Source of the DNA: Hymenobacter monticola
GTDB lineage: Bacteria > Bacteroidota > Bacteroidia > Cytophagales > Hymenobacteraceae
Length of the DNA stretch: 64,000 bases
Assembly: GCF_022811645.1 (NCBI RefSeq)
Contig: NZ_CP094534.1
Coordinates: forward strand, 434,001 to 498,000
Reading direction: 5' to 3'
Both the position numbers and the translations under genes were made by a program. Below, piece after piece: positions 4,856 through 11,457 of the stretch. Under the pieces are notes generated by a model. That model searched no databases. It saw nothing but the letters and a program-made list of their open reading frames with translations, and was not told the origin of the DNA. The stretch's first letter is position 1. Each line of letters opens with the position of its first letter.

Positions 4856-6322
4856 ATGCCTTACGTCGACTACCGCAAGCTCTTCAGCCCCGAACGGCCT
4901 TCTGCAGCCGTGCGTTTGCTGCGGAGCCAGAACGCGCCGCTGGTGCTATGCTTCCTACAACAGAGCTTCAAGGCTGGCAACTACTCGCCGGTGCTGGCGA
5001 GCGAGGAGCTGGCCCGGGACTTGGCTGAGTTTTTAGAAACCGAGCAAGCCGGCGACGCCGAGGAGGGCGACCTGACCACGCTGGGCCTCCCCTACGACGA
5101 ACAAGCCGCGCAGCTGCTGAAGAAATGGGTGCGCCACGGCTACCTCACCCTCTACACCGACGAGCACGGCACCGACCAGCACACTCTCACGCCCGAACTG
5201 GAAAGCGTGCTCGACTGGGTGCATTCGCTGCTCGACAAGCCGGCTCACGTGGGCACCGAATCCCGGTTTCTGGACATTATGCACAAGCTGCGCGAGCTGG
5301 TGCAAAACTCCGACGACGACTGGCGCAATAAACTGGCGGAGTTGGAAAATCAGAAAAGCAACCTCGAAAAGCAAATTCGGGAGCTGAAGCTGAGTAAAAC
5401 CGTGGTAACCTACGACGACGTGCAAATCACGGAGCGTTACCAGAACGTGAGCGGGCTGGCGCGCGGGCTGCTGCGCGATTTCCGGGAGGTGGAGGGCAAT
5501 TTCCGGGAAATTACGCAACGAATTTACCAGCAGCAGTCGGCCGCCGGGCACACCAAGGGCAGCTTGCTTAGCTTGGCTCTCGATGCGCTCGATGCCCTGC
5601 GCGACACCCCCCAGGGCCGCAGCTTCTAGGCCTTTTACCAGCACCTCACCAACCCGCGCCAGAAAGCCGAGCTCGACCAGTTGGTGAAGCAGGTATTTGA
5701 GCTGTTGCAGGCGCGCGGGCTGGCCAATGGCGACGGCTTTCTGCGCAAAATCCGGTTTTACCTGCATGGCGAGGGGCAGAAGGTGAACGAGTCGTTTCAC
5801 GCCTTAGCCCGCAAGCTGGAGAAAATAGTTTCGGAGAAAAACCTGCGTGAACGCCGCCGCTCGCTGGCCCTCATTCGGGACATTCGCCAGCTGGCGTTTG
5901 ACGCCATGGAAGCCCCACCCGAAGACGCCGTGTTTCTGGAAATCGACGGGAGGGCTGATTACCAGGCCAGTGAGCTGCGGGAGCTTGTGGCGCTGGAGGA
6001 GCGCGAAAGCGGCATCGTGGCCCGGCCACTGGCGGTGGCGCGGCAGGAAGAAGCCGATTTTGTGCCGCTGCTGGGGCCGCGCGTGGTGGAGAAGGCGGTG
6101 CTGTTGGCCAACATCGACCAGTTGCTGCGCGCCCGGCCGCAAGTGAGCCTGCGCCAGGTGGTGGACGCCCACGCCCTGCAACACGGCCTGGCCGAGCTGA
6201 TGACCTACGGCAGCATTGCCGCCGCCTCCGACAAGCACCTGCTCAACGACCAGCGCACCGAGGTTTTCGTGCTCGGGCCGGGGCGGGCCTGCGAGTTTCC
6301 CGAAATCATTTTCTGCCGCTAG
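4856..6322 (+). pseudogene. jetA: Wadjet JetA (DUF3375), interrupted by an in-frame amber codon
   Basis: JetA is the kleisin-like subunit of the Wadjet SMC complex, which recognises and destroys plasmid DNA. The frame opens at ATG 4856 and reads 257 codons to TAG at 5627-5629. It then continues in the same frame, without any indel, for 230 codons to the real stop at 6320-6322. The total of 488 codon positions matches DUF3375 proteins (about 480-500). The stop lies inside conserved sequence, GRSF before it and AFYQHL after it. A coiled-coil stretch (residues about 163-183) precedes it. After the stop the first in-frame ATG is over 90 codons away; only TTG/GTG codons at 5681/5684 could restart. 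A single base change can create this TAG from CAG, GAG, AAG, TGG, TTG or a Tyr codon. It could be a pseudogene, a readthrough product or a sequencing error. Confidence 0.85.
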
Positions 6323-6334
6323 CCTTTCTACTTT

Positions 6335-6922
6335 ATGCCCAAACCTTACGCCTCGCTGCTCATCAAGCTGCTGCAAACGCACGCGCTTTACTCCGACGAC
6401 GACCCGCAGTACTGGCAGCAGTTACAGGACTATGAAGTGCCTGTGCGGGATTACTTCGAACAGATTGGCGTGAGCCTGGACTTGAACCGCGCCGAGGGCT
6501 ACGCCCGCCTCACGCAGCCCGAGCCCGCCGAGGACGACCCGGCCCCGCCCCGGCGCCTGCTGCGCCGGGTGGGCCTCAGCTACGAGCAAAGCTTGCTGTG
6601 TGTGGTGCTGCGCGAGTGGCTGGAGGAGCACGAAGCCAGCGCCCAAACCACCACCCGCCGGCTGTTTGCCACCCGCGCCGAAATCCGGGAGCGGGTGGAG
6701 CTTTTTTTCAATCAGCCTACCAACCGCAAGGCCTGGCTCGGTAAGCTGGACGCCGTGGTGGAAAAGCTGGAGCTGCACGGCCTGCTGAAGCTGCATCAGC
6801 GCGACGACAACCAGCCCGACCAGACGAAATACGAGGTTAAAGCCCTGCTCAAGGCCAAAATCAGCCTGGAGAAACTCGAAGAATTTAAAGAAAAGCTGCT
6901 CCGCCATGCTGAATCTGTTTGA
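6335..6922 (+). CDS. jetB: Wadjet JetB (DUF4194)
   Basis: The 195-residue product is the MukE/KITE-like subunit that bridges the kleisin JetA and the SMC protein JetC. It has the two winged-helix layout of DUF4194: an N-terminal half, an Asp/Glu/Pro-rich break around residues 65-75, then RVGLSYEQSLLCVVLREWLE and a C-terminal helix bundle rich in Lys/Glu. It begins 12 bp after the JetA stop and its last 17 bp overlap the start of jetC, so translation is probably coupled. The frame is intact. Confidence 0.9.
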   Translation: MPKPYASLLIKLLQTHALYSDDDPQYWQQLQDYEVPVRDYFEQIGVSLDLNRAEGYARLTQPEPAEDDPAPPRRLLRRVGLSYEQSLLCVVLREWLEEHEASAQTTTRRLFATRAEIRERVELFFNQPTNRKAWLGKLDAVVEKLELHGLLKLHQRDDNQPDQTKYEVKALLKAKISLEKLEEFKEKLLRHAESV

Positions 6923-9900
6923 TGAGCTGACCGGGCCGGCGGGCTACCGCCTCCGCCGCCTGCAGGCGTTCAACTGGGGCACGTTTCACGAGGGCAGCAC
7001 GCAGAACGACATCTGGGAGCTGAAGCCCGATGGGGAAAACACGCTGCTGACGGGCGCCAACGGCTCGGGCAAAACCACCCTCGTGGATGGGCTGCTGGCC
7101 TTGCTGGTACCGCCCACGAAGCGGTTTTTCAACCAATCGTCGGGGGCGCAGAAACGGACCGACCGCAGCGAGGAATCGTACGTGGAGGGCCACTACGGCC
7201 GCACGCAGGGCGATGAGCAGCAGAAGTCGCGGGTGGAGCAGCTGCGCAAGCGCAGCGACAACCCGTATTCCATCATTCTGGGCGTGTTTGCCAACGCCCA
7301 AAGCCTGCCCGTGACGCTGGTGCAGGTGCGCTGGTTCAGCAGCGCGGGCCTGCAGCGCCGCTACCTGGTGGCCAAGGCCGAGCTTAACATCGCTGAACAC
7401 ATTCAGTTCAGCACCAGCGGGCAATGGGTGAGCCAGCTGAAAAAGAAGTTCCCAGACCGCGTGGTGGAAGAATTCGACAGCTTTCCGCGCTACGCCGACA
7501 AATTCCGGCAGCTGTTTGGGATGCGCAGCGACAAGGCGCAGACCCTGTTCAACCAAACCGTGGGCATGAAGGTGCTGGGCGACCTGGACGAGTTCATTCG
7601 CACCAACATGCTGGAAGAGAGCACCGCGCAGGCCGAATTTGACAAGCTGCTCGGCAACTACCAGACCTTGCTCACGGCCTACTGTGCCCTCGAAAAAGCC
7701 CGCGCTCAGCTCCAGCTGCTCCAGCCCGTGCACGAGCTGAGCGCTGAGTACGAGCAACTGCGGCAGACATTGCAGCAGCTGAAGGCGCAGCAGCGGCTGC
7801 TGGAGCCGTGGTTTGCCGGCCATCAGGTGGCGCTGTGGGACGACGAAACCGCGCGCCAGCACCGGGAGTTGGACCAGCTCATCGACCAGCTGGGACAGCA
7901 GGAAAAAGGTCACGATGCCACCAATGAGCAGCGCGTGGCCCTGGAAGTGCAGGTGGCCAACAACCAAGTGGCGCAGCAAATCCGCGACTTGAGCCGCGAC
8001 ATCAGCGACCTGACCAAAACAAAAAACGAGAAGGAAAAGAGCCTGCGCGGCTATAACACGCTGGCCCGCGGGCTGGGCCTGGTTGAGAACCCCGACGCGG
8101 GCACCTTCGCTGCCAACGTGGAGCAGGCGCTGGCCCTGCAACGGGAAGTGCGCCAGACCCGGCAGGACCTGGAGCAGCAAAAGCTGGACGACTACGCCCA
8201 CCTAAAGGAGCAGCAGAAACGGCACACCGAGGTGCAGGCCGAGGTGGACCAGCTGGAAAGCAGCAAGGGCAAAATCACGCGTCGGCCGGCCGAAATCCGG
8301 CAGGAGATATTGGAAGCCGTGGGCGCCACGGAGGCTGAAATACCGTTTCTGGCCGAGGTGGTGCAGGTGAAACCCGATGAGCGCAAGGTGTGGAACGACG
8401 CCCTGGAGAAGCTGCTGCACAGCACCGGCCTGAGCTTGCTGGTGCCCGAGCGGCTGTATTCGGCGGTGCGGGCCTACGTGCACGAGCAGCGCGACCTGCG
8501 CGGCAAGGTGGTGTTTCACCGCGTGGAGCGCCGGGCGCCGCCTACTGTTTTTCAAAATGATGACTCGGTGTGGGGCAAGCTTGATCTTAATGACAAAAGC
8601 GAGTATGCCGCCTGGGCCGAGCACCACATTGCCAGCCGCTTCGACCACCTTTGTACCGAGGACGCGGCCAACTTTGAGCGGGCCGATAAGGCACTGCTAC
8701 CTTCGGGCTTGGTGCGCAACAAAAACCGCCACGAGCGCGACGACAGCCGCCGCCAAGACCACATTCTAGGCTGGGACAACCGCGAGCTGCTGCGCGAGCG
8801 TACCCGCCAGGCCCGCGACCTGAGCGAGGCCATTGCCAAAGCCGAAGCCGGCCTGCGCCGCCTGAGCAAGGAAATTGCGCAGGCCGAGGACCGCGAAAAA
8901 GCGTGCGCCAACTTCCTGCTGGCCGAGCATTTCTCCAAAATCGACTGGCAGGCCGACGCATTCCAGATTCAGGCGCTGACCGACCGCCGCGATGCGCTGG
9001 AAAACGACAGCACCGCCCTGAAAACCATGCAGGAACAGCTGCGGACGCTGAAAACGGAGCTGCAAAAGCAGGCCGATGAAATCAAGGCAACCAACCAGCG
9101 GATTACACGCACGGAAGACTTGCTGAAAAGACTTCGGGATGAGCGACAAGCGGCCCGGCAACAACTGGACAGCTTCGACTCGGCCAACACGGCGGCCGAC
9201 CTCGCCAGCCTGGACGAACCGACGCGGGAGTTGCGCGGCCGCCTCAGCTACGCGCAGTTTGCGGCCCAGAAAGAAGCGTTTGGGCAGGACATGGGCCGGC
9301 GCGTGTTCCGGCAGGACGAGCAGGTGCGGGCGCGGGCCAAGGAGATTTGCGAGGCGATGTACCGCTTTCTGCACCCCGGCCCGGCCGTCACGGCCAAGTT
9401 TACCGACTGGGAAAGCGACAACCGGGAACTGCGCCCCGAGATTGAGCGACTGGCCGAGTACGTGGACCGCTACGAGCACATCAAAAACGACAACCTAGCC
9501 GAGCTGGAAACCCGCTTTCACGACGAGTTCAAGCGGGGCGTGACCAAGGCCCTCAGCGACTTCGTGACCTCACTGGAGCAGCAGCACGACCTCATTTGCG
9601 AGACCATCGGGCAGATAAACGAGTCGTTGCGCGGCATCCCGTTCAACCTCAACCCCGACACCTACATCCAGCTGGAGCAAACCGACTCGACCGAGCCGCT
9701 GATTCATAAGTTTCGGCATGAGCAGCTGCGCAGCTGGCAGCCCGACTACACCGTGCACGGGCTGGCCAGCAACCAGCGCGAAATCGAGCTGGCTCACTTT
9801 GCCGAGGTCATTCAGCCCTTCATTCTGGAGCTGCGCGACCAGGAAAAGTGGCGGCAGTACGTCACCGATGTGCGCAACTGGTCACGCTTCAAAGCCCGCG

Positions 9901-10322
9901 AAAAATACCGACACGACGACACATCGAAGCAAGTGTACGAAAGTTCGGGTAGCCTGTCGGGCGGCGAAGGGGCGCAGCTGGCCTACACGGTGCTGGGGGC
10001 AGCCATTGCCTACCAGTTCGGCATCAACCGCGAATCGGGCGGGCACCGCTCGTTCCGGTTTATCGTGATTGACGAAGCCTTCAGCAAGCTAGACGAGGAC
10101 AAGTCGGCCTACCTGCTCAAGCTCTGCGCCAGCCTGGGCCTGCAGCTGATGGTGGTGACGCCGCTGACCTCGCTGCATTTGCTCGAAAAAGACGTGCGCG
10201 TGATTCATTGGGTGACCAAAGCCAAGCAGGACAAGCGCCGCTCGGTGGTACGCGACATTCCCATTCGCGTGTATCAGGCCGAGAAGGAAGCCTTGCTCAC
10301 GGCCGAAGCCAGCCATGATTAG
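6906..10322 (+). CDS. jetC: Wadjet JetC, SMC-like ATPase
   Basis: JetC is the motor ATPase that extrudes DNA loops in the Wadjet complex. The 1138-residue protein has Walker A GANGSGKT (residues 50-57) at the N-terminal head. Long Gln/Glu/Lys-rich coiled coils follow (about 250-470 and 600-760) around a central hinge-like region. The C-terminal head carries the ABC signature LSGGE at 1017-1021 and Walker B VIDEAF with D1056-E1057. Head motifs at both ends with a coiled-coil middle are the SMC plan. It overlaps jetB by 17 bp and jetD by 8 bp. No disruption is visible. Confidence 0.93.
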   Translation: MLNLFDELTGPAGYRLRRLQAFNWGTFHEGSTQNDIWELKPDGENTLLTGANGSGKTTLVDGLLALLVPPTKRFFNQSSGAQKRTDRSEESYVEGHYGRTQGDEQQKSRVEQLRKRSDNPYSIILGVFANAQSLPVTLVQVRWFSSAGLQRRYLVAKAELNIAEHIQFSTSGQWVSQLKKKFPDRVVEEFDSFPRYADKFRQLFGMRSDKAQTLFNQTVGMKVLGDLDEFIRTNMLEESTAQAEFDKLLGNYQTLLTAYCALEKARAQLQLLQPVHELSAEYEQLRQTLQQLKAQQRLLEPWFAGHQVALWDDETARQHRELDQLIDQLGQQEKGHDATNEQRVALEVQVANNQVAQQIRDLSRDISDLTKTKNEKEKSLRGYNTLARGLGLVENPDAGTFAANVEQALALQREVRQTRQDLEQQKLDDYAHLKEQQKRHTEVQAEVDQLESSKGKITRRPAEIRQEILEAVGATEAEIPFLAEVVQVKPDERKVWNDALEKLLHSTGLSLLVPERLYSAVRAYVHEQRDLRGKVVFHRVERRAPPTVFQNDDSVWGKLDLNDKSEYAAWAEHHIASRFDHLCTEDAANFERADKALLPSGLVRNKNRHERDDSRRQDHILGWDNRELLRERTRQARDLSEAIAKAEAGLRRLSKEIAQAEDREKACANFLLAEHFSKIDWQADAFQIQALTDRRDALENDSTALKTMQEQLRTLKTELQKQADEIKATNQRITRTEDLLKRLRDERQAARQQLDSFDSANTAADLASLDEPTRELRGRLSYAQFAAQKEAFGQDMGRRVFRQDEQVRARAKEICEAMYRFLHPGPAVTAKFTDWESDNRELRPEIERLAEYVDRYEHIKNDNLAELETRFHDEFKRGVTKALSDFVTSLEQQHDLICETIGQINESLRGIPFNLNPDTYIQLEQTDSTEPLIHKFRHEQLRSWQPDYTVHGLASNQREIELAHFAEVIQPFILELRDQEKWRQYVTDVRNWSRFKAREKYRHDDTSKQVYESSGSLSGGEGAQLAYTVLGAAIAYQFGINRESGGHRSFRFIVIDEAFSKLDEDKSAYLLKLCASLGLQLMVVTPLTSLHLLEKDVRVIHWVTKAKQDKRRSVVRDIPIRVYQAEKEALLTAEASHD

Positions 10323-11457
10323 TCTGCCCGAGTTGCGCGCCAAAGCCATGCGGCAGTACATGGCCGTGCTGCGGGCGCACCTGGAGGGCGAAAACATATT
10401 CCCGCTGCCAATCCGGGCCAGCAAGGCGCTGGACCGTACACAAGGCGGCGCTCATATCTATGAGCAACTAAAAGAACTAGTCGAGCACTCTAAAAACCGC
10501 ACGGGTTCCGGCTATTGGCTATCCACCAAGCCCAACCGCAAGACCGGGCAGAGCGAAGTCAGCCGTATTGAATTTGAGACGCGGGCCGATTTTCTGGGTT
10601 TCATCGATAAGCAAACGGAGTTCGACCTGCTTGAAGCCAATGCCCGCCGCACCGCCAGCGAGGTGCCTGAGCTGCTGCCGCTGCTCCAACAAACGCCGCG
10701 CCTGCTGCTGGATAACCTCGCTGACTGGCCCGGCTTGCTCACGGTGTGCGCTTATTTCCAGGCAAACCCGCAGCCCAATGAGTACGTGCGCAGCCTGGAA
10801 CTGCCGCTGCCCACCAAGTTTGTGGAGCAGCACCAAGTCGCCCTACGCCCGCTGCTCGACTGGCTGATTCCCAACTTCGTGCGAGCCGAGGAAACCGACT
10901 TTTTCCGGCGATTTCACCTCTTGCTGGAAGAGCCCGGCATCAAGGTGCGCTTTTTGGACGCGGCGCGGCGGCTGCACCCGGCCGTGTCGCAGTGCAGCGT
11001 GTGGGCCAGCGAGTTCCGACAGCTTAATCTGCCCGTGCGCCGGGTGTACATCATCGAAAACCTGACTTCTTTTCTGGCTTTTCCGCCGGTGGCGGAGGCG
11101 CTGGCCGTTTGGGGCGGCGGCTTTGCGGTGAGCCTGCTGGCCGGGGCCGACTGGCTGCGCGACAAGCCGCTTTTTTACTGGGGCGACCTTGACGTGCACG
11201 GTTTCCAGATTCTGGCGCAACTGCGGACGCATTTCCCGGCCGCGCAGTCGCTGCTGATGGATGTGGGCACGTTTGCGCGGTACCACGGCGGCGGCACGGG
11301 CGGCAATTTTATGCCCCAAATACTCCCCAACCTGACCAGTGCCGAGCAGCAGCTGTACCAAACCCTGCTGCAAACCAACGCCCGCTTGGAGCAGGAGCAG
11401 CTGCCGCCACGCTACGTGGCCGCCGCCGTGCAGGCCACGGTGTCGGGCGGCCGTTAG
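10315..11457 (+). CDS. jetD: Wadjet JetD nuclease subunit (DUF3322/DUF2220)
   Basis: JetD is the topoisomerase VI-like endonuclease that cleaves circular plasmid DNA held by JetABC. The 380-residue protein has an N-terminal DUF3322 half and a C-terminal DUF2220 half with a Toprim-type centre: a Glu in YIIEN (E248) and the acidic G290-D-L-D293 in FYWGDLDVHGF. Length and motifs match the family. The start codon overlaps the jetC stop (ATGATTAG), so the gene is translationally coupled. It is intact, so only jetA of this system looks damaged. Confidence 0.92.
   Translation: MISLPELRAKAMRQYMAVLRAHLEGENIFPLPIRASKALDRTQGGAHIYEQLKELVEHSKNRTGSGYWLSTKPNRKTGQSEVSRIEFETRADFLGFIDKQTEFDLLEANARRTASEVPELLPLLQQTPRLLLDNLADWPGLLTVCAYFQANPQPNEYVRSLELPLPTKFVEQHQVALRPLLDWLIPNFVRAEETDFFRRFHLLLEEPGIKVRFLDAARRLHPAVSQCSVWASEFRQLNLPVRRVYIIENLTSFLAFPPVAEALAVWGGGFAVSLLAGADWLRDKPLFYWGDLDVHGFQILAQLRTHFPAAQSLLMDVGTFARYHGGGTGGNFMPQILPNLTSAEQQLYQTLLQTNARLEQEQLPPRYVAAAVQATVSGGR

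Follow-up and report, generated by a model that had tools for sequence, protein, structure and literature searches.

Probable recent loss of jetA through a single in-frame stop codon in a type I Wadjet operon of Hymenobacter monticola

In a 64 kb window (the whole stretch of DNA that was analysed, taken from a Hymenobacter genome of 6.12 Mb, on its contig of 5.6 Mb) we identified by sequence a Wadjet operon of which one gene is broken. The kleisin gene jetA is interrupted by one in-frame amber codon, and jetB, jetC and jetD are full length. The explanation that we prefer, and hold to be probable, is that jetA was lost to one real and recent nonsense substitution and that the system is now off. 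The first-pass annotation had listed four options for this stop, namely a very recent inactivation, readthrough, synthesis of JetA as two polypeptides and a sequencing error. Recent inactivation came out as the best supported of these, while readthrough and the two polypeptides found no support. The features that the argument relies on are given here in positions of the window.

4856-11457, + strand, jetABCD operon of type I Wadjet, genes adjacent in the order jetA-jetB-jetC-jetD
4856-6322, + strand, jetA, whole locus including the internal stop
4856..5629, + strand, part of jetA before the stop, 257 codons plus the TAG at 5627-5629
5627-5629, + strand, in-frame amber TAG, inside a conserved QGRSF-x-AFY stretch
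5630..6322, + strand, part of jetA after the stop, frame unchanged, 230 codons, with its normal end at the TAG 6320-6322
6335-6922, + strand, jetB (DUF4194, MukE-like KITE), full length by PADLOC and Pfam
6906-10322, + strand, jetC (SMC ATPase), full length by PADLOC
7053-7076, 9954-9968 and 10059-10076, + strand, jetC motifs Walker A, LSGGE and Walker B
10315-11457, + strand, jetD (Toprim nuclease), full length by PADLOC and Pfam
11050-11061 and 11185-11193, + strand, jetD motifs, the E in IIEN and DLD (DxD)

The ATG at 4856, the TAG at 5627-5629 and the stop at 6320-6322 all share one reading frame, and the two parts of jetA fall on neighboring portions of the same family models. The 257 residues of the N part correspond to positions 4-254 of the 489 in the PADLOC JetA1 model PDLC00444 (287.8 bits) and the 230 residues of the C part to positions 256-489 (178.7 bits). 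Against the 474 positions of Pfam DUF3375 the N part covers 6-236 and the C part 238-474. These nearly contiguous matches uphold the earlier claim that one in-frame TAG splits jetA and that its halves together make a full-length DUF3375 protein. Judging from the matches, a stop flanked by two well-matching halves of one family is no chance ORF boundary, and a profile search of the whole genome returned the jetA locus as a single match containing "1 TAG". By sequence search the N half matches the solved JetA chains 8q72, 9qxt, 8as8 and 8dk1, and no solved structure was matched by the C half alone.

The rest of the operon is what would be expected of type I Wadjet (JetABCD, also EptABCD or MksBEFG). 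All five jet pieces, with jetA counted in two, have the type I models (JetA1, JetB1, JetC1, JetD1) as their best PADLOC matches and also match their expected Pfam families, and jetB, jetC and jetD are complete against JetB1, JetC1 and JetD1. The gene order, the ATPase motifs of JetC, the Toprim motifs of JetD and the likeness of the JetA N half to JetA chains of solved structure (8q72 and 8dk1 among them) are shared with the known system; what differs is that jetA is not one continuous kleisin gene but is interrupted by one stop codon. The motif places in JetC and JetD were found by pattern and are common to the 6 relatives aligned, and we take these motifs to be the Walker A, signature (LSGGE) and Walker B of the ATPase and the E and DxD of the Toprim domain. 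That jetB, jetC and jetD keep their overlaps and motifs had been claimed from the first reading and holds, with jetB and jetC overlapping by 17 nt, jetC and jetD by 8 nt, and every motif located. The jetA and jetB genes do not overlap and lie 12 nt apart. Over 6320-6335 of the window these two genes share the same reading frame, separated by only a TAG and four codons.

The place where the stop falls is highly conserved. Homologues all ending at this position would have spoken against a full-length gene, and this possibility is ruled out, as the stop column holds a sense codon in 7 of the 7 genus relatives aligned, a relic copy in the genome G023 included. In a broader alignment, for which 24 loci were tried and 20 kept (L009 was left out because the wrong strand had been picked, and L019, L026 and L027 because no ORF had been picked), a residue occupies the stop column in 20 of 20 homologues, a count that the selection of open frames makes partly true by construction. 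Next to the stop in the conserved QGRSF-x-AF stretch, none of the 20 sequences varies at G253, S255, F256 or F259 (numbered on the first sequence). The structural context was taken from an AlphaFold model of an intact JetA of the H. polaris type, built with 20 sequences and weak overall (mean pLDDT 70.8, pTM 0.36). In this model the stop site lies within a predicted helix at 251-264 (block pLDDT about 70), and the poorest-predicted stretch of JetA is 360-407, which looks more like a linker. Given the invariant neighbors and the predicted helix, a break at the stop site should destroy the fold. A Foldseek search with the model of the intact relative returned the JetABC of E. coli and P. aeruginosa ahead of MukBEF and MukEF entries, but the TM-scores are low (the top six have 0.17-0.27 over the query), so that the search confirms the family and nothing beyond it.

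Wadjet is present in a minority of related genomes, where both intact and decayed copies can be seen. DUF3375 is matched in 13 of 120 Hymenobacter genomes, over nearly the whole profile in 10; JetB is matched in 10 of the 120 (9 over the cut-off), and full-length JetC and the C-terminal domain of JetD are each found in 9. The JetA proteins of H. polaris RP-2-7 and H. setariae Fur1 are 84% and 82% identical to the one studied here. Eight other genomes of the 120 have stop-free matches to jetA, jetB and jetC near full profile length together with the C-terminal domain of jetD; in one of these intact-type operons (G054) jetB ends 7 codons earlier than ours. Among the 10 near-full-length jetA copies of the genus, an internal stop occurs in 2, our own and that of G023, and both are TAG; the full-length matches to JetB, JetC and the JetD C-terminal domain in the genus hold no internal stop. 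The G023 copy (L073, G023:C22:88000-107000, jetA at 10283-8826) is near full length with one TAG near the C-terminus, its jetB is truncated and its jetC and jetD have no match in the genome search, by which the locus is to be read as a relic Wadjet operon. A further genome, G027, keeps a jetA remnant with three stops. Widening the search to the family gave matches in 17 of 204 genomes, with 14 near-full-length copies (own included) of which the same two, ours and G023, carry a single stop. In a sample of the class 20 of 395 genomes match, 18 over the cut-off, and the only copy of the 18 with a stop is our own. We considered recurrent amber codons as a possible signal and rejected them as coincidence plus decay, with the G023 TAG lying elsewhere in the gene and in a relic operon.

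Partial copies were also seen beside or apart from intact ones. In the genome of the H. setariae type (G070), which keeps an intact operon, another contig carries a further, partial jetA at G070:C13:115364-118939. A short match to JetC and a match to JetD lie near it, so that this looks like a second Wadjet with an internal deletion. A genome from a different genus in the family (G592) has three JetA matches, on its contigs C18, C19 and C10, two of them partial (profile positions 128-474 and 6-137).

The age of the inactivation was approached through dN/dS on our own branch, estimated using three sisters and with wide bootstrap intervals. The value for jetA is 0.179 (bootstrap 0.115-0.270), which falls within the spread of the other three genes, those for jetB, jetC and jetD being 0.129, 0.245 and 0.178. 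Within jetA the part before the stop gives 0.176 and the part after it 0.179, and the latter is no more relaxed than the former. Values among the sisters are lower than on our own branch (jetA 0.104 vs 0.179, jetC 0.119 vs 0.245), and because jetC is raised too, any relaxation is not special to jetA. The implied neutral fraction of the branch is about 0.08 for jetA as a whole (bootstrap -0.006 to 0.184) and 0.102 for the part after the stop (bootstrap 0.001-0.278), which leaves some room for neutrality over a longer time. A different measure comes from the 4383 single-base changes open to jetA, of which 151 would create another stop, giving about 50 expected further stops per unit neutral distance. 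No second stop was seen in jetA, and three expected further stops would correspond to roughly 0.06 substitutions per site, a figure that ignores transition bias. Taken together, the dN/dS values, the neutral fraction and the absence of further stops mean that the stop arose late on the branch or is not real. This is the picture of a recent pseudogene, with intact orthologues, one disabling change and little or no relaxed selection yet, within dN/dS intervals that are wide.

The main rival, that the TAG is a consensus error of the assembly and the true gene is intact and active, we consider rather unlikely. A single base is all that it requires, the remainder of jetA is under purifying selection and jetB, jetC and jetD are intact. 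The stop also stands alone. A codon-usage scan of the 64 kb, designed for stops that have coding sequence before and after them in one frame and not for frameshifts, listed 5 places, 5627, 6320, 58157, 58535 and 8202. The stop at 6320 is the normal end of jetA, 8202 is antisense to jetC, and 58157 and 58535 are gene boundaries in a ribosomal-protein cluster whose genes were recognised by eye, which leaves 5627 as the sole unexplained in-frame stop from the scan. On the other side, the assembly appears to be of good quality (7 contigs, completeness 100, contamination 0.79), and a stray substitution is expected to be rare in an assembly of this kind. In long reads, indels make up most of the errors that remain, which would bear on this genome if it was sequenced in that way. 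The site is outside any homopolymer, though six consecutive C occur some 15 nt upstream of it.

The remaining rivals accept the stop and keep JetA functional in spite of it. Amber readthrough to a useful level of full-length JetA, which we regard as a remote prospect, could draw on the conserved, in-frame codons after the stop and on the single TAG in a second Hymenobacter jetA, that of G023, but the latter is at a different place and within the relic described above, where jetB is cut short and matches to jetC and jetD are lacking. The genome also does not look equipped for it. A CUA anticodon is present in 0 of the 44 tRNAs called by ARAGORN, the one further match among the 45 that Rfam gave for tRNAs (109 nt, uncalled by ARAGORN) shows no CTA by eye, RF1 is present (492.7 bits), and TAG terminates 6 of the 26 long ORFs of the window. 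The 121 nt of RNA around the stop fold no better than shuffles (z 0.19). Strong suppression would moreover fuse JetA to JetB, because the own stop of jetA is a TAG and jetB follows in the same frame four codons on. The marks of a suppressed amber codon, a CUA tRNA or loss of RF1 and a stop at the same place in relatives, were thus looked for in this genome and in the seven aligned relatives and not found, the relatives having a sense codon in 7 of 7; with a stop in a conserved stretch and an unremarkable RNA fold added, the readthrough option of the first-pass annotation is left without support. Its other proposal, a split kleisin assembled from two polypeptides with a restart at TTG 5681 or GTG 5684, is hardly credible to us. 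Both codons are in frame after the stop, as had been claimed, being the 18th and 19th past it, and an open 213-aa ORF runs from the TTG. However, the cut is in the conserved QGRSF-x-AF stretch and the predicted helix, away from the linker-like 360-407, the restart products would lack the rest of the motif, only non-ATG start-like codons are nearby (the first in-frame ATG comes only at 5906), and no promoter-like site was found in 5580-6400. Among the 14 near-full-length JetA of the family the only other stop is near the C-terminus. Repeats and promoter- or terminator-like sites were looked for as well, and yielded nothing useful. A combined form, in which JetA is still made by trace readthrough or as two associating halves and a low or conditional Wadjet tolerates the resident 13-15 kb plasmid-like contigs, is in our view very unlikely; if it were so, jetA stops would be a way to tune the system and not to lose it. 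As a separate observation, the tRNA-like gene of 109 nt (L045 1954-2062, G000:C1:4623152-4623260) has an enlarged anticodon arm and could be either a pseudogene or a tRNA that carries an insertion.

Returning to the recent loss of jetA, the course of events would be simple. A nonsense substitution would have arisen in jetA, recently relative to the divergence from the sister species, and the ribosome would now stop after 257 of 488 codons. The 257-aa product would lack the second kleisin half and have its conserved helix broken. It is this half that completes the SMC ring in complexes of the family. Without it the complex would be unable to close or to assemble into the DNA-measuring nuclease, and therefore the system should be off. 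The data show the stop, the intact state of everything else in the operon, the intact relatives and no clear sign of a long time without selection; from them we infer a real base, an absence of full-length JetA and a loss of plasmid restriction. The published part of this reasoning is that all four Wadjet subunits are required, as stated in PMC10586767. It agrees with the earlier claim that loss of the kleisin alone lets plasmids in, but the plasmid content of the genome itself does not show so.

That content can be described as follows. The genome has six further contigs, of 176, 120, 100, 92, 15.3 and 13.2 kb. The two small plasmid-like ones, G000:C6 (15253 bases) and G000:C7 (13222 bases), have related Rep3 initiators that are 63% identical; one has a MobA/VirD2-type relaxase and the other a DUF5712 protein with a type IV coupling protein, and no exact terminal overlap was found in either. 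Rep3 counts, which include chromosomal and draft-contig copies, are 0, 0, 1, 2, 6, 5, 2 and 4 in the 8 genomes with intact Wadjet (median 2). The median is 4 in the other 112 genomes, which include our own, G023 and G027, and the difference is not significant (one-sided Mann-Whitney p 0.088). Our own genome has a count of 8, and counts of 8 or more occur in 11 of the 120 genomes. A genome with an intact-looking operon, G057, also has contigs of 6.9 and 5.0 kb with Rep3 matches. Three small contigs from a set of four genomes without a DUF3375 match gave no Rep3 match (for L104 in the first 20 kb only), a result to which we give no weight. Plasmid content as proof of a lost defence was dropped in view of the small contigs of G057 and the p of 0.088. 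From their gene content, the small plasmid-like contigs of our own genome would fit a lost anti-plasmid system and prove nothing.

Broken Wadjet genes are already in print, and the locus here is a further instance. A passage of the PADLOC paper uses a frameshifted jetC as its worked example (PMC9252829), and in some strains of Xylella fastidiosa jetA (printed "JatA") and JetC are regarded as pseudogenes, according to a passage in PMC9148166. The laboratory Mycobacterium smegmatis is described as EptABCD null in a passage of PMC10586767, and according to a passage of PMC12287153 a deletion that arose spontaneously in Clostridium cellulovorans took jetABCD with it. What these precedents have in common with our locus is that jet genes were lost, either one or several from a system that can still be recognised or the entire operon at once. 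Our locus differs from the precedents, as these passages give them, in that only jetA is hit, by one stop codon, and in that the host is a Hymenobacter. Our literature search returned no paper on Wadjet with Hymenobacter and none on Wadjet with readthrough.

The known workings of Wadjet are unchanged by the finding. It is useful for genome annotation, because the default PADLOC workflow misses pseudogenes in such systems, as noted in a passage of its paper (PMC9252829). If the stop is real, the operon would be a clean natural case of an anti-plasmid system shortly after the loss of one of its subunits, in which jetB, jetC and jetD are still intact. Seen alongside the relics of related species, it suggests a ready turnover of Wadjet in Hymenobacter, by gain as well as by loss.
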